From assembly GCA_947034885.2 (NCBI GenBank), contig OX344750.2, forward strand, positions 17,168,053-17,232,052: DNA of 64,000 nucleotides, in the 5' to 3' direction. Shown piece by piece: positions 7,837-57,515 of this stretch. Position 1 is the first letter of the stretch; the number at the start of each line of letters is the position of its first letter. This DNA is from Thuidium tamariscinum (lineage: Eukaryota > Streptophyta > Bryopsida > Hypnales > Thuidiaceae). The notes under the pieces were generated by a model. That model did not search any database. It was given only the letters and a program-made list of their open reading frames with translations, and was not told the DNA's origin. Both the position numbers and the translations under genes were made by a program.

Positions 7837-10763
7837 ATGAAGTACAGACGGTCCAAGCCGCATGCAGCAGCCACAGCGATCCAAGCGGCGTATCGAGGCC
7901 ACCTGGTGCGTAAGACACAACCTCTGAAGCTTCTGCGAATCATCCGAAGCGTGCGAACGGAGCTTCAGAGGCTGGAGCACCAACTCGCAGCCGACCCCCG
8001 TTTGTTCGAGACTCTGCGGAGGGATCCCACGGAGAGGCTGAAATGGAGCGAGGGAGGGATGGCGCTCTTACTGCAGCTCGACTCCATGCAGGCAACTTTC
8101 ATTTGTTTGTTTGTTTGTTCTTTTTCTTCGTTCTTCACTGGGGTGTTTCTGAGAATTTGTTGGAGGCTACCAATTTGGGCGGATTTTGTTATTTTGGTCG
8201 CTGCCATATGGCGATTTTACGAGTTTGTCTAAGAATTTAGAAGAATATCATCACTAACTGCAAAAATCATTTGATAATAAGTAACTGCATGTAAAAGCTT
8301 TTGGAAATACCACGGTAATGCACTCATTTTGTTGCCTAAAAGCTTTGAGATTTTACAAATGTTTCTATTCTATAATTACTTATTGACGAACAAGGGTCTC
8401 TGAATGCAGGGAGTGCACCCGGTTGTGCGAGTGCAGCGGAAGAGCCTGACCAAGGACGTGATTCTGTACCAAGAGTATATCGATTCTGCAGGGAAAGGAG
8501 CACATTTGCCTTATGTTCCACCTCCAGGGCAGGGCGTGCCTCAAGTACCTCCACCCAATGTAATGTATAACCAACAAGGAGGGTATTCAACAAGTTACAG
8601 TTCTTATGGAGCAACGCAGCAGGCTGGTAACCCTCAGGCTCATGTTCCCAATGTTCCAACAGGTCCAGGTCGCGGTGAGCGGCCTGCCAGTCAATTTTCT
8701 GTTCCCCCAGAGAAGACTTATTATCCTCCAGCTCAAGGTGTGGCTTGTGAATCCTTAAACTTTCATGTTTTGGCTGCTGGGAACACTGTCACTCCTGTGG
8801 CTTGGCTTGTTTTCTCTTGAACAGGCCCTTCTCTCTTGTTACTAAGTTCATAATGTTTTTCGGGGGAAGGAGTTTTGACCTCTGTAAGGTTTCAATATTT
8901 ATTCTCGGTGTATCAGGTTGTAGCGTTGTAACCTAGGTCGAATAGGGTTGCACACAGTTTTTTTTTTTCATTTTTGGAGAATAGCCACAGTGGCGACATA
9001 AAATGTTATAGGGATGCTCCAAATTGCAACATTCATCCGTTTTTTGGATGTATAGTATGGTTTTCATCCCAAATTAGGCGAATGCATCTAATATTTTTCT
9101 TTATTTCAAAGTTGTCTGGCGATTTCATCCAAGTTTTCTGGCATTTTTTTGGGTGTTTTTTAGCCAGATTTATTTTATTTTATTGCACACTGGCACCAAA
9201 AAGACAAAAAAAAGCCCTGGTTGCAAATTTAATGGGTTTGAGGTTCGCATATCAGCATGTTTCATATTTTCATAATATTTTTCGTAATTGCTCATACATG
9301 CTTTTTTTTGTGGATCAGGCAACCCTCGGTATGAATATGATTCACGTTTTCCTCCAGGCACAGAGCCTGATGTAATAGACCTCTTCAGGAAAGCAGATGT
9401 GGATGGAAATGGAGCCATTGATACCATGGAGTTGCAAAGAATTCTATCACTCAAGTTCTTCAATTTTAGTCGGAGAACTGTGCGCTTGATGCTCCACCTT
9501 TTTGCCGACAATACCACTGTTAGTTCCAGGTAACCGGACTTCCGAGCTCTTGCCTCCAAGCCGTTCCCTTACCCATCAAATCTATATTAGTGTGTCTGAT
9601 TTTCACTATATGAACTAAGAAGTGCTCTTGATAACTTAAAGTCATGTGATTTATGTTGCAGATTCAATATGATCCCAACAGCTTGGTTGATACCAATCTG
9701 ACCCTTCCTCCCTCATCCATCAGATCAATTTCAATGTGACTGGTTTGCACTGGAAAGCGCTTCTAAAAACCTGAAAGTCATGTGATGTTTGTGTTGGAAA
9801 TTTGATATAATCTGACATCTTGAGTGATGTCAATCTGAATCCTCCCCCACCCTACCCATCCGCTCGATATCAATCTGCCAGGTTTAACTACATCAAAAAT
9901 CATGTGATTTTTGTTTTGGAGATTGGGATTGAAAGTCATGTGATGTCGGGTTGGAGATTAGTCTGGTACTTTTTTACTAAATGGAAAATCATTTGATATT
10001 AGTGTTGCAAGTTGGGATTCAAAGTCATGTCATATTTGGTTATTAGATTTGTCTCTCATGTTTAGACATCATGGAAAGTTTTGTGATGTTCGTGTTGTAG
10101 ATTGGGACTCAAAAGTCATGTGTTTTGGGTTGCAAATTGTGACTATAAGATATATGATGTCATGTGATGTTTGGGTTGCAAATTGTGACTAAAAGTTATA
10201 TGATGTCATGTGATGTTTGAAGTTGCAAATTATGACTAAAAGTTACATGATGTGTGGCAGATTTGGATTGTTGTAGATTGGCACTAAAAGTCGTGTGTGT
10301 GATGTGGTGTATCTATTCAAAATTAGGATCTTTATATTCTAATTTGGGACTAAAAGCAATGTGATGTTTGTGTTGTGATGATTGGGACTGACAATCACAC
10401 GATGTGTGTTGCAGATTGGGACCCGGTGCATTTGTGAGGCTATGGAGGGAACTAAAGAAATGGCAACGGATATTCAAAAGCTTTGACACCAATGGCAATG
10501 GGACCATTGACTTACCGGAGTTAAGGGAAGCCATGTTGAGCCTAGGAATCGGAGTGACGCCCCAAGTGTTGCAACTTCTCATGTGTAACTATGATCGAAC
10601 AGGTCAGAACTCCAGCATCGCGTTTGGTGACTTCATTGAGTGCGGATTGATTGTGAAAGGCTTGACAGAGAAGTTCATCTCTCATGATCCCCAGTACACC
10701 GGAGCTGCGAAAATTGATTACCAGACTTTTATGATGATGGTCTTGCCCTTCATTGTTGCTTAG
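7837..10763 (+). CDS. IQ-BAG / penta-EF-hand fusion protein (4 coding exons)
   Basis: Coding exons 7837-8091, 8410-8737, 9319-9529 and 10415-10763 join in phase to 380 residues. Residues 14-26 form an IQ motif (AIQAAYRGHLVRK). Residues about 30-113 match plant BAG domains (RRDPTERLKWSEG, LLLQLDSMQ then GVHPVV), the Hsp70-cochaperone fold of the BAG5/6/7 group. A linker of about 80 residues rich in Pro, Tyr, Gln and Gly follows. From residue 195 the protein matches plant penta-EF-hand proteins (CML49/50 type, ALG-2/peflin family): loop 1 at 221-232 (DVDGNGAIDTME), loop at 289-300 (DTNGNGTIDLPE), then FIECGLIVKGLTEKF and the C-terminal LPFIVA. Both loops keep the Ca2+ ligands. Exon 2 holds BAG residues and the PEF linker in one frame, so fusion is not a gene-prediction artefact. 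Start ATG 7837 follows the acceptor at 7803. Exon 1 ends at a GC donor. Likely a calcium- and calmodulin-responsive cochaperone; that role is inference. Confidence 0.85.
8955..9219 (+). mobile_element. hAT-type MITE, copy 1 (in intron 2 of the BAG/PEF gene)
   Basis: 265 bp, from CAGTTTTTTTT to AAAAAAAAGCCCTG. Flanks are GTTGCACA (8947-8954) and GTTGCAAA (9220-9227), an 8-bp target duplication with one mismatch. It is about 80-90% similar to the copy at 62142-62406. CAG/CTG ends and 8-bp duplications are typical of hAT elements; no transposase is present. Confidence 0.8.
9600..10414 (+). repeat. Degenerate tandem repeats filling intron 3, each with a copy of the splice acceptor
   Basis: Units of roughly 36 bases resemble GATTGGGACTAAAAGTCATG followed by TGATGTTTGTGTTGCA, repeated some 15-20 times with drift. 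The true acceptor, TGTGTTGCAG before ATTGGGACCC (exon start 10415), is the last unit of the array, so the repeats look like copies of the intron/exon boundary. Confidence 0.7.
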
Positions 10764-13534: not shown

Positions 13535-16500
13535 TCAGCAAACAGCAGGGATGCTTTTAGGTTGTCTCTCCTTTATAGGAACTTCAGGGTATGAAGGTCT
13601 GACTAGTCTGGGTCTCAGGCCAGGCTTCGCCGCTACAACCCTACCACCAAATTTCTTGGGACCCGGTTTCCTCCCTCGGCCATGCCACCGACCAGCAGAC
13701 TGCACAAGGGATTGACCTAACAGCGCAGCGATATGAGTTGCCATCTCTGCGGCCCTTTCTTTCTGCACGAAAAGCTCCTCGGGGAAGTGCTGACTTAACC
13801 ACAAGTACATGGATAGCACCTGTCAAGATTTCCAACTTCGATGCGTTACTACTTTGACGAACAAAAATGCAAGAGTAACGACGGAAATTCCTAAAACTAT
13901 AAGTAGAAGAAATCCACGGAGATTGTGGCCATACTATTTAGCTTGCTTGTAGTCTAGATCAGTGCTGAAAAAAACTTACTGCATGCGGTTGCCCTAATAA
14001 TCCTGTCAACCACATTACATAAAAGTATATGCAAAAAAAACAGAATCAATGAGATTGAAATATATACCTGATGTCGAGTTTCCAGGTCCATAAGCTCAAA
14101 CTCATCGCGGGCAGAATTGAGTGGTGCCCCCATTTGCACGACTACAGGAATCTTCTGACTGAACGCCAAGGCATAGCGGTAAAGCGCACCCAATGACTGT
14201 GGATCCCGGACGTTTACAGGGGTAAAGCAGAAGTTGAATCGATCTTCTAATGACAGACCTTTCACCTTGTCAAGAACGCTTGCTACCCTCTGCAATTCAT
14301 GAGAAAGCGAAGGTAAAATTCGTAGTTCAAAACCCAGATGGTATTCCGTACAAGCGGACACCTTAGAGATATCCTAGAAGGGTCACATTCCTAAACTCGA
14401 AAGGCAAAAGATGAATATTGCATGAGGTACTTCGAGAAACAATCTAAAGCAGGACCAAACCAAGGAAAACAATTGCATTGAATGTACAACGCAAAAAAAA
14501 CGCGTTGGAGGGAACTGAGCAAGAGATAAGAATTCCACGAAATCAACCTAATAAAAATGTGGACAAAAAAAGTTAATTCCTCACTTGGACCTTTCCCATA
14601 GGGTCATTTCCCCACCAAATTTAAACATATTTAGAAAACTGAGAAAAAGGAAAAATGTCTTTTGCTAGTTTTAAAATTTGAGGTGCAGACAATTGCCCTA
14701 CCATCCTTTTAGCACCAACCAAGCACAATTCCCAAGGAATATGCCATGCTCATCAACATCCAGCAACATTGTTTTGACTCTACACCACTCTTTATCTAGT
14801 GCTCTTTAGAACCTGAAAGTGACTCAAATCAAGCAAACATCTTGAAGATCAAGATAAGATTAGTTCCAAGTTGGTGGTAGATTGGTGGATTTAGAATAAC
14901 TTCTAGAACCTTCTAACTATGATTTTAATTTATTACTTCTAAAGTTCTTCACTATTTGTTTGACAGGCCTCAAAACTCAATACCTTTGTCTCAATTTCAT
15001 AGCTTTCAGAACATATGTAGTTAGTTGTAAAATTGGTGACGAATTGATTATCTGGGGAAGTGTCTCACTGAGAAATGGACTCTTCTGTTCCCGACTCTAA
15101 GCAGAGTACTCCAACATACATTCAAAACATGTGAAGTTTGGAATAAAGTGGTTATGCACCATGTTCTCCATGTGAAGTACTGTCAGCAACCCAATGGCAC
15201 GTTTTTCTCTCGATAATAAAGCAAAATTTGTATAGAAATCCATTCTTACTTTCAAATTATCGTAGCGGCAGAGGAAGTATGCACCGTCCAACCGACATGT
15301 CTCTGCAAACCTGTACGACGAAAGGCGTATTAATAAGAATACTACCAAAGTCACCATCAATGTAACATAACTGCTTCATTGTATTTATCCTTGAGCCATA
15401 AAATGGAGCGGTAGAAGTAGTTGAGTTTTTACTCTTCTGAACAAACTCTATAATTGCAAAATCTCCAAAATTCATTTACATACATCAATATTTAATCTTG
15501 CCACAATAAAAGAGTCATTCATACCTCTCCAGCAAGTGAGCAAATGACGTCTCTGGCAGTTGACTAGCAAAAAGCTCCACCTACGCACAAAAAAGAAAAA
15601 GATTTCAACAATCACGAATTACGAGGCTATTGGAACTAGAAAGAAAGTGCAACCTCTAAACATATCTATGAGTTGAACGATAGATTCAAGGCGTAAAGAA
15701 TTAGAATAAAATGAACAGCTAAATAGTTTCGCCTTCATGTTATTAACCGGAGATGATGCAACCACTCTTATAGCATAACACGAAAGGAGAGGAGGCATCA
15801 AAATGCTTGAAGTTACTCGTCATGGAACTGGAAACCAGCATCCACATGTATTCAAGTGCACTGATTTTTCCTATTAGAACGTGTTACCAAAGGAACGAAT
15901 AGCGATACAGCTAGCGAGCAGGATGTCTACTCACCTGTTCATATACTGGGAACAGACCTGCTGCAGTGGCAGGCTCAAAGTCTTGCTGCAATGACTGCTC
16001 CAGATAAGCTATGTCCTGAGAGTAGAAGGCAGTAGTAACACCATCTGGAAATATACTCCCCCGACGTCCTGCCCTCCCTGCAATCTGCTTCACCTGAGGG
16101 GCTGGAATAGGTCTCTTTGCATCGCCATCAAATTTGTCAAGAGAATAGAACACAACCCGTCGAATATTGAGATTCAGACCCATTCCAACAGCATCACTTG
16201 CAACCAAGACATCATATCCGCTATTTGGGTCATTGAACAACTTTGCTTGCTGAGTTCTTGTCTCAGGTGGAAGGGCTCCGTATACAACACAGCACTTGTG
16301 ATTTGTTGCTAATTCCACTTCGCGCTGTTGTTGACATAAAATCACAAATAGAGAGAACATTATCACTGTACGGCACTACTTAAAACAACAGGAATCGAGA
16401 GACCACAGGCGAAAGAATGGCCCCAAACAAGGCAAACTATGCTCGACTCAGAGCTTCTTGACTACGTACCATCGTTGCAAATAACAATTATCATGTTATG

Positions 16501-22033: not shown

Positions 22034-23713
22034 TCAAATTGCGTAATCTTTTTTCAAGTACCTGCGCTCATAAAGACCCGTCACCTGATCAGCAACCGCC
22101 CACATGATAGCTTGGCCTGGAGGTATACGCATTAGGCGAGGTAGCAAACCTTTCCACAATGCCAGCAACCCCTCTTCAGAGTAAATGCGAGTGAGCGCAT
22201 GTGCCAATCCTCTGTATTTCACTTCCCCTCCCGCACTCCTAGTTTGTGCCATGAGACGAGTTTTGATAACATCAAACGGACCTGTTGCCACTGGTCCTGC
22301 AAAACCTGCAATAAAACCCGACACCATTGACTGCCATGGGAGGAGAGTGGCGCCGTCCCCCTCGAATTTCTTCCACAAGAGCTGATCAACGCCATTTTTC
22401 ACTGTAAACATAACAGACTGGTTGGTTCCATTCCGTAGGACGGTAGGAGCAACACCTGCCCACAGTCCTCTCAATCCCTCCTCACGCACGATTGTGGTGG
22501 CACAATGCACCGGTCCCTTGTACTTCAGCAGCTCTCGCCCCAGTCCTCGCTGCTGTTGTAGCCGAATTTTCACCACCTGTCGAAGAAAAGCCATTTATCA
22601 AACACTAACTTTCCAATTCAACGATCCAAATATTACGGAAGTAGATGCATCAACATATGGACGGACGGCGCTAAAACGTCAGTCAACAAATCGACCGATG
22701 AAGAACATGACCTAAGAACGAAATGTGATCGAGACAGACATCTTTGATAGTCATCACCGAAGATGTGTCTGAGTTCGAAGCAGAAGTGCGCGAAGCAAAA
22801 AGCAAAAGCAAGACTTATCATACTGGGCAAAATGCAATTCAGATTTACACCAAGCCTTTGTCTCCGTATTCTTTGCAACAAAAAAATCTTCAGCACAACT
22901 TTATACGCATTCTCGAACCACAGGGGTCCGTTATAAATACTCACAGACAATGCCATGTGCTTCCTGGTATAAAGAACTCAAAACACGCCCGATAAATCTA
23001 CAAACATCGTCCGTTATGACAGCCTACTTCGCGAAAAATATCGCAACTCTTACGTGTCCGAATTCTGACTAGCAACCAGCAGTTGAACTGCTTAATTGGC
23101 ACAAACGAGAAGCTACATGGAAAAGAAGGAGAAGGCCAGAACACAAACCACACGACTACAAATTCATCACAAAAAAATCAATAGAAAATAAAAAAGATCA
23201 AGAAATCATGAAAATTCGTCACAAGAAAAAATCAACTAAACCCTAAACCTCTGCAAGACCTAAAAACAGAGCCTCAGCCGATCCCACACCCAAAAAAAAC
23301 CCACAATTCACCTCAAACGGCGTGACAATCACAACAGCTTCCAAAACTCCAGCGCCAAAACCCGCGGCCACCCTCCCTCCCGGACTGAGCTTCCCCGTCT
23401 CCTTATCCGCCAACGCACGTTGAAAGAGCGCATTGGAGCCCATGCGCAAGGTGTACTTCAACGTCAAATGCGTGGCGAACGGCGTCAAGCCCTTCCAGAG
23501 CGCGCGCACGCCCTCGCGCTCCACGATGGAGATCCCGCAGTGCCAGATGCCGCGGTACTCCTTGCGCGGGTCCAGCTGCAGGCGCGTCTTGATCACGTCG
23601 ATGGGTTGCAGGCAGCAAGCCTCCACCAGCCCTCCCAGGGAGCCGGATATAGCCTTGAAGTAAGGAGGAATGGCGACGGCATTGTCGTTGGTGTCTCGCC
23701 TTCTCTCGGTCAT
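22034..23713 (-). CDS. SFC1: Mitochondrial succinate/fumarate carrier (2 exons)
   Basis: Exons 23312-23713 and 22034-22576 join in phase 0 to 314 residues, the normal length for the mitochondrial carrier family. Three signature repeats are present: PIDVIK (37-42), PFEVVK (132-137) and PFDVIK (234-239), each at the end of an odd-numbered transmembrane helix. The sequence follows plant mSFC1 closely: AISGSLGGLVEACCLQPIDV, ALWKGLTPFATHLTLKYTLR, VLRNGTNQSVMFT and LLPRLMRIPPGQAIMWAVAD. The family exchanges cytosolic succinate for mitochondrial fumarate across the inner membrane, linking glyoxylate-cycle carbon to the TCA cycle. The single intron splits GAG/GTG inside the second signature. The start ATG at 23713 has a CT/GA-rich leader upstream. 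Confidence 0.95.
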
Positions 23714-24069
23714 TGGCAGCTCCTACTAACTTACTTCGGCTTCGGCTTCTTTCTCCCTCGCCTCTCGGTCGAATTCGATGGAATTCAGACGAGTGGGGAG
23801 GGGCAGAGAAAACCTAGGAGGGGAGCGGGAGCTGGAATTGGGGTGGCGTTGCTGCATTGGCAATGTTGGTTGGGGACGCGAGGTGGGCGCAACATCGGAA
23901 GGCGGATAGGTACGAAGAGAGAGTGACGAGAGAGACGGCGCCGGGACTGACTGGTGGCGGTCACCGGTCGGCCGCACGACAGCCGGCGGAACTTTTTTGG
24001 AATCGGAGAGGTACTGTGGCAGATGTTCGATGAAGGGAAATACCAGAAACGTAACTTAATTGGGCAATG

Positions 24070-56300: not shown

Positions 56301-57515
56301 TGGTCGGGACGTTACAAATTTCGGTGGAACATTTTTCGGGCAGTTGCTGACTTCCTTCTTTATCTGTGTGCAGACTGGCCCTAACATCATACAGTCCTCT
56401 CAAGATTGGGATGAAGGAAATCCAGAAGAATTACCAGAGCCAAATTTGGCCACTGAAAGCAGGCGTTTGAGTGACCGTGGGGAGAATAATGGCTCTATTA
56501 GAAGACAAGGATCGCTGCCAGCTGCTCAGTCAGAGGGTCGAGACAGTGAAGCCCCAATGCCTCCGTTGACACTGGCTCCTGTACCCGAGTATGATATGAC
56601 GAGGTAAGCGTCAGCGATTCATCGTGGGTTGCAAGTTTCCGCTGGATTGTTATGTTTTCGTACTTTTCATTTGTTATAGCTGTCAATTCAATTTTAAATG
56701 AAAGTGCAGAAAACTGGTTGAGCTGAGATGCTCTTATGTAATTTCTACGTTCTATCATTTGGTTGGTCTTTGAAATTCTTTTTGATTGTAGACCATGTGA
56801 TGTAGCTAAGGTACTGAAACAGCTTGGACAAGCTGCGAATGGCCTAGCAAACCAAAGGGGACAAAATCTACAGATCACATCATGTTCTCCCCTACATGCA
56901 GCCGTAGACTCTGCCGGTCTTCATCGAGTTTGCAGCCACCTTCTTGAGATCGCTCTGCAGCATACACCCAAGGGAGGAATTGTAAGGGCGAACGCAATGA
57001 GGGCACCTGGAGGTGGTGTTCTTATAATTTTTGAGGACAGTGGACCAAATACTACGGTAAGCTTGAAAAATAATCAGTAACAAGAAACCTATCTGGTCAT
57101 CTGGTTTTGGACGAATATTTACCATTTACGAATGCTGCAGATAGTGGGTGTCTGTCACCTCATTGTGTGCATTATTGATAAGCTTCAAACCTCATGATTG
57201 TAACTTTTTGAGACATAAATGTGAATTGACTCGGCAGTCACATATTGCTCTTGAAGCTTTTCTGTTTGCCAGGCGTTTTTAACGAGGCTTTGTTTTCTGC
57301 ATACCCAGGACGTTGATTCTGTTCCTTCATGGAGGGGCACAGATCTTGAAGAGGCGCTTTTAGGAGAAGGTGTCCAGTTTGTTCAAGATATTGTAGAGCA
57401 ACAACTGGGGGGTGTTATTCGTATGCTCTCTCGTGTACAGAATGGTCGAGCTGATGGTGGTGGCACTTACATTGAAATTTGGCTTCCTGCTGTTCCCAAA
57501 GTCGAAGACTTCTGA
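53307..57515 (+). CDS. CSK: Chloroplast sensor kinase (9 exons)
   Basis: Exons 53307-53741, 54147-54302, 54457-54705, 55632-55697, 55862-55930, 56075-56158, 56374-56603, 56792-57056, 57309-57515; 586 residues, close to plant CSK length. CSK is a plastid stromal protein related to cyanobacterial histidine kinase Hik2 and couples photosystem redox state to chloroplast transcription. The Ser/Thr-rich N-terminus fits a transit peptide. The middle (about 125-280) corresponds to the GAF sensor, with FFALCTEQLGLCQEIVGPSA and VYIRPAESY. The dimerisation box reads LLEQARGPLQAIRTLSQLM, with Glu301 at the place of the phosphorylated His, as in land-plant CSK. Then ISRDFIENILVQGTRMKDVL, PMPPLTLAPVPEYDMTRPCD and the ATP-binding region with APGGGVLIIFEDSGP and GGGTYIEIWLPA. 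Start ATG 53307 is the first in frame after stops. Intron 3 contains a transposon. Confidence 0.95.
54710..55334 (-). mobile_element. TTAA-type MITE E5 at the 5' splice site of CSK intron 3
   Basis: Left end CCCCTAAATGCCCAAGGC directly follows GTAA (54706-54709), which is the intron donor; the right end GCCTTGGGCATTTAGGGG precedes TTAA (55335-55338). An 18-bp perfect inverted repeat. About 625 bp, homologous to E3 in reverse orientation. The left TTAA has become GTAA or lost a T, and now serves as the splice donor. Confidence 0.85.

Follow-up and report, generated by a model that had tools for sequence, protein, structure and literature searches.

A gene on the forward strand of the window, the 64,000 nt stretch of Thuidium tamariscinum contig OX344750.2 analysed here, appears to encode a 380-residue protein in which an IQ-BAG module and an ALG-2-like penta-EF-hand (PEF) domain are joined by a linker rich in Pro, Tyr and Gln. 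We give this best explanation, a nuclear moss gene with a mechanism that we infer, a probability of about two in three. Both domains are predicted to lie in one spliced frame with the seam within exon 2, and the exon structure argues for a single transcript. The domain families were already known, and what appears to be new is their combination. The fusion and the identities of its domains had been proposed in an earlier sequence-only reading, and are supported here by Pfam, PDB sequence searches, comparison within the genome and the key residues.

Structure of the gene

The four exons (Table 1) splice to a single frame of 380 codons and a stop, with agreeing exon phases, which confirmed the coordinates, frame and phases of the sequence-only reading. 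Introns 2 and 3 are GT-AG, but the donor of intron 1 is CAG/GCAACT (slash at the splice point), with GC instead of GT. Four other IQ-BAG genes in the genome (L025-L028) lack this intron at the matching place, and a search for it elsewhere in the genome gave two short partial matches and no more. Intron 1 is bordered by a 7-base direct repeat, ATGCAGG (8086-8092 and 8404-8410), approximately four of whose seven bases are accounted for by the splice consensus. Given this flanking repeat and the lack of an intron in L025-L028, intron 1 was possibly gained.

Table 1. Predicted features of the IQ-BAG-PEF gene and its neighbours (positions in the window; aa, residues of the predicted protein)
Feature	Positions	Strand	Description
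Exon 1	7837-8091	+	Start Met, IQ motif, most of BAG; aa 1-85 (85 aa)
IQ calmodulin-binding motif	7861-7914	+	aa 9-26, Pfam IQ
BAG domain, first part	7951-8091	+	aa 39-85, Pfam BAG
Intron 1	8092-8409	+	318 bp, GC-AG
Exon 2	8410-8737	+	BAG end and Pro/Tyr/Gln linker
Exon 2, BAG part	8410-8490	+	aa 86-112; R95/K96 at 8437-8442
Exon 2, Pro/Tyr/Gln-rich linker	8491-8737	+	aa 113-194; terminates in ...YYPPAQ
Intron 2	8738-9318	+	Contains dispersed repeat at ~8958-9223
Exon 3	9319-9529	+	Linker end, FPPGTEP, EF1, EF2 start
EF1 Ca2+ loop DVDGNGAIDTME	9396-9431	+	aa 221-232, canonical
Intron 3	9530-10414	+	Degenerate repeats with acceptor-like copies
Exon 4	10415-10763	+	Remaining EF2, EF3-EF5, stop
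EF3 Ca2+ loop DTNGNGTIDLPE	10485-10520	+	aa 289-300, canonical
Helicase C-terminal exon	15914-16375	-	SUV3-like by eye; neighbouring gene
Mitochondrial carrier pieces	22037-23722	-	Neighbouring gene
Histidine-kinase ATPase match	56742-57077	+	Neighbouring gene; match below its cut-off

The dispersed repeat in intron 2 (~265 bp) has at least 39 other copies with 88-92% identity, with 40 of the 1440 first-look candidates scored. The stretch from 9916 to 10423, which spans part of intron 3 and the first bases of exon 4, contains 10 near copies of TTGCAGATTGGGACT, the exon 4 acceptor sequence, and the real acceptor is the last of these; the whole window holds 15 such copies versus 2.5 expected. 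Since the reading frame of exon 3 has no Met upstream of EF1, the PEF part must be preceded by another exon, for which exon 2 has the right phase.

Domains of the predicted protein

Profile searches of the 380-residue protein detected IQ (PF00612) at residues 9-26 (22.7 bits, cut-off 20.3) and BAG (PF02179) at residues 39-112 (28.4 bits, cut-off 23.4), the latter within the interval 30-113 where the sequence-only reading required it. EF-hand_6 scored 53.9 (cut-off 25), and EF-hand_1, EF-hand_5 and EF-hand_7 were likewise above their cut-offs, with EF-hand_8 and AIF-1 below theirs; the best EF-hand stretches were two, at 214-236 and 281-309. No ubiquitin-like domain was found in this protein by Pfam. 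In PDB sequence searches, the C-terminal part matched mu-like calpain (E 7.6e-21) and ALG-2 (1.1e-20, residues 212-376), followed by sorcin and grancalcin, and residues 212-376 align end to end as five successive EF-hands with both ALG-2 and four PEF proteins of the same genome. When scored against the canonical EF-hand loop pattern, EF1 and EF3 fit and EF2, EF4 and EF5 do not; ALG-2 and all four plain PEFs of the genome show the same two fitting hands. The proposal of a full PEF domain with intact Ca2+ loops was therefore right about the domain, but only two of the five loops are canonical.

The residues I15, Q16 and R20 are invariant in all five aligned IQ-BAG sequences of this genome, with a spacing equal to that of I57, Q58 and R62 in AtBAG5, and R95/K96 line up with the Arg-Lys pair of AtBAG1 in weak PDB alignments (E 0.17 for 4hwc). 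The IQ isoleucine and the basic pair are 80 residues apart in the fusion, and 74 in AtBAG5. Searched against the PDB, the BAG half by itself had one match, of the IQ type (E 0.06), and a profile of five IQ-BAGs had 14, in which the BAG regulator entries 4hwf (0.099), 4hwc (0.17) and 4hwi (0.47), which we take to be Arabidopsis entries, were not significant; the Arg-Lys pairs are in register in the profile alignments to 4hwf and 4hwc. There was no AtBAG5 chain among the matches listed for either search, so the residue match with AtBAG5 rests on the motif and the text of the published study. I15/Q16/R20 and R95/K96 are likely to be the counterparts of AtBAG5 I57/Q58/R62 and R131/R132, and binding of calmodulin, Hsp70 and Ca2+ is predicted from these and the other conserved residues.

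The seam within exon 2

The start of exon 2 (GVHPVVRVQRKSL) aligns in one unbroken stretch with the four uninterrupted IQ-BAG genes, and its frame continues into the linker. The junction LDSMQ/GVHP between exons 1 and 2 is supported by the same genes, as L025 and L026 (LDSLQGVHPEVR) and L027 and L028 (LDAVQGAHADVR) cross this point without an intron. At the other end of the linker, all five PEF proteins in the genome, including the fusion, have YPP just upstream of the FPP at the start of the PEF domain, and in the fusion gene this motif pair is split by the exon 2/3 junction, with YPP towards the 3′ end of exon 2 and FPP encoded by exon 3. The BAG alignment, the YPP...FPP pair and the lack of a Met before EF1 together suggest that exon 2 combines a natural BAG end with a PEF start, and the frame, the IQ-BAG alignment and the YPP/FPP motifs bear out the proposal that this one exon encodes part of BAG helix 3 and a PEF-type linker.

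Codon choice marks the BAG part alone as coding: synonymous codon choice was equally high in 0/2000 neutral draws for the BAG part, 403/2000 for the linker and 276/2000 for the PEF part, the last two not being significant. The open frame of the linker is not distinctive, with one reverse frame likewise open. GC3 drops within exon 2 at the BAG/linker seam (18/27 versus 24/82 codons, p 0.001), which is simply in keeping with a linker derived from a PEF, since linker GC3 is also lower than PEF-domain GC3 in 4/4 plain PEFs.

Related loci in the same genome

A search of the genome (363 Mb, 19 contigs) with the 380-residue protein gave 14 matches, consisting of the four exons of the gene itself, five PEF and five IQ-BAG matches. 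These represent four plain PEF loci (on C5, C4, C7 and C10, the last matched by two exons) and five IQ-BAG loci (on C6, C1 twice, C2 and C4). C4 is the only one of the four plain-PEF contigs that also has an IQ-BAG match, ~3.6 Mb apart. No match to the missing half was detected at any of the nine other loci within the 8.0-9.9 kb fetched for each, and a Pfam scan of eight of them showed one kind of domain each (the IQ motif of L025 scoring below cut-off, 17.3 versus 20.3); the ninth, L021, has a frame break inside BAG and was compared by tblastn only. The BAG half alone gave no additional locus in a genome search at E up to 1, and the PEF half alone gave 12 further weak matches (best 4.6e-4). 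In the genome searches with the whole protein and with each half, the fusion locus was thus the sole locus found with both parts, and the statement that IQ-BAG and PEF are normally separate holds for the nine other loci in this genome, which is the scope compared.

A genome search with the PF02179 profile gave five matches and missed the fusion gene, presumably because intron 1 splits its BAG domain; the protein query recovered the gene. One of these five, C4:7139144, was not matched by the 380-residue query. Conserved blocks downstream of L027 and L028 were considered as further fused domains, and were rejected as exons because they lie in several frames with stops. The IQ-BAG copy L021 (C4:19250500-19260400), which is similar to L025, contains further stops besides its BAG frame break, and is probably a pseudogene. 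As observations on plastid sequences, contig C19 contains rbcL, followed by tRNA-Arg (CCG) and then accD (by eye), and a second rbcL copy with an internal stop is located on the 54-Mb contig C1 (38347545-38348475), where it is likely to represent plastid DNA inserted in the nucleus. The nuclear PsaL protein of this genome scored highest against PDB chain 8htu (392 bits), ahead of 7xqp (331) and 6l35 (321), both shorter chains, 9lut (313) and 7ksq (310), with all others at 292 or below; 8htu, 7xqp, 6l35 and 7ksq are photosystem I structures of Physcomitrium patens, in line with a moss genome.

Constraint and divergence

In comparisons with paralogues, pN was 0.32-0.34 versus a pS of 0.68-0.81 for the PEF half (4/4 PEF paralogues), and 0.28-0.34 versus 0.64-0.85 for the BAG half (4/5 IQ-BAG paralogues, leaving out L021). 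Both halves therefore appear to be under protein-level constraint, part of which may predate the fusion because paralogues were the sequences compared. Identity of the PEF half to each of the four plain PEFs is 48-51%, against 61-85% among those four, and the BAG half has its top identity (57%) to L025. In a PEF tree including ALG-2, the fusion half sits on a long branch and outside the group of four plain PEFs (support weak, 60), which may reflect either an old lineage or fast change. The unrooted BAG tree, which left out L021, places the fusion with the short pair L027/L028 (support 79). The branch lengths of the fusion are 0.59 for the PEF half and 0.62 for the BAG half.

Alternative explanations

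Exon 2 might be shared by two overlapping units, giving BAG-only and PEF-only transcripts with the joined form rare or absent, an arrangement which we consider rather unlikely. The BAG-only transcript would end in intron 2, as the exon 2 frame remains open past its donor to a stop after 8817 and would add a short hydrophobic tail, and the PEF-only transcript would start inside intron 1 or exon 2, using the in-frame Met codon at 8404 or 8563; the four plain PEFs indeed have a Met immediately upstream of such a linker, and a GC donor, as in intron 1, could promote partial products. Exon 2 ends and exon 3 begins in matching phase, which argues against separate units, as does the exon 3 frame, without a Met before EF1. 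Intron 2 contains neither AATAAA nor AATGAA, but as the initial 337 bp of the 3′ flank lack both motifs too, this carries no weight for either view.

It is improbable that the gene is a chance chimera, dying or unexpressed, in which a duplicated BAG segment came to sit ahead of a PEF gene, giving a joined frame without function. Its single copy, the long branches of both halves, the GC donor and the repeats in introns 2 and 3 would suit such an origin, but all four exons have remained open despite pS values of 0.64-0.85, pN is well below pS in both halves, and the key residues are retained. We regard an assembly artefact, with two loci misjoined at the multicopy repeat in intron 2 (at least 39 copies elsewhere, from 40 of 1440 candidates scored), as highly improbable: the repeat measures only ~265 bp in an assembly whose contigs of up to 54 Mb suggest long reads, the exon with the BAG end already contains, ahead of the repeat, a PEF-type linker on the right strand and in the right phase, and no orphan half turned up in the genome when either half was used as a query.

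Proposed function of the fusion protein

Our preferred reading, a single IQ-BAG-PEF protein, would extend what has been reported for AtBAG5, which in the available sections of that study binds apo-calmodulin through I57/Q58/R62, loses Hsc70 binding upon changes of R131/R132, and binds Ca2+-loaded calmodulin and Hsc70 with negative cooperativity (PMC4990970). The same sections state that the Arg-Lys pair of AtBAG1 binds Hsc70, and describe plant IQ-BAGs as hubs which link Ca2+ signals to Hsp70 via bound calmodulin (PMC4990970). The fusion protein is likely to be a calcium-tuned Hsp70 co-chaperone, by a mechanism that we infer as follows. At resting Ca2+, as in AtBAG5, the IQ helix would hold apo-calmodulin and the BAG bundle would grip the ATPase domain of Hsp70. 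Upon a rise in Ca2+, calmodulin would switch its binding and loosen the BAG-Hsp70 contact, as measured in AtBAG5, and EF1 and EF3 of the fused PEF domain would load Ca2+ and expose a target-binding face. The PEF domain would thereby provide a second, direct Ca2+ input as well as a docking or pairing surface. PEF proteins generally pair through EF5, and the fused domain may dimerise in this way, either with itself or with a plain PEF. As an outcome, the Hsp70 co-chaperone could be carried to Ca2+-marked membranes or partners, and Hsp70 released there. We tentatively suggest, as a possibility with about half the weight of the fusion itself, a co-chaperone class of the moss lineage in which a single chain senses Ca2+ both via IQ-bound calmodulin and via its own PEF domain, with Ca2+ loosening Hsp70 and relocating the protein.

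If true, the fusion suggests by the domain-fusion argument that plain IQ-BAG and plain PEF proteins cooperate in other plants, a prediction which covers CML49/50 and BAG5-7. In moss, it would bear on the link between Ca2+ and protein repair under drought and heat.

Comparison with known systems

The fusion shares with plant PEFs, which we take to be the CML48/49/50 group and which were represented by the four PEFs of this genome, the Pro/Tyr/Gln linker, the FPP start, canonical EF1 and EF3 and the ECG..VKGLTEKF stretch; it differs from these plain PEFs in being preceded by an IQ-BAG module, and its intron is placed differently from that of the C10 PEF. The animal PEF protein ALG-2 (PDCD6) aligns with it over the whole domain (E 1.1e-20) and has the identical two canonical loops, but is only ~30% identical to the fusion PEF, and to our knowledge has no BAG domain. 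In the part of the literature that was covered, which did not extend to an existing preprint about BAG proteins of Physcomitrium patens, we found no open paper on a combination of BAG with EF-hands; the available text of a Musa BAG study describes EF-hand-like pockets in the KED motif, and no EF-hand domain in a BAG protein.

On the BAG side, AtBAG1-4 share the BAG domain and the Arg-Lys pair, but the available sections of two studies place a ubiquitin-like domain where the fusion has its IQ motif (PMC8198428, PMC4990970). There is also a likeness in layout to the IQ-BAGs (Arabidopsis BAG5, BAG6 and BAG7), in which, according to the sections available, the IQ motif adjoins a three-helix BAG domain and both the I/Q/R residues and the basic pair of helix 3 are present (PMC4990970). 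AtBAG5 is described there as having two modules, IQ and BAG (PMC4990970), whereas the moss protein would add a PEF domain to these and carries its IQ motif at the extreme N-terminus.
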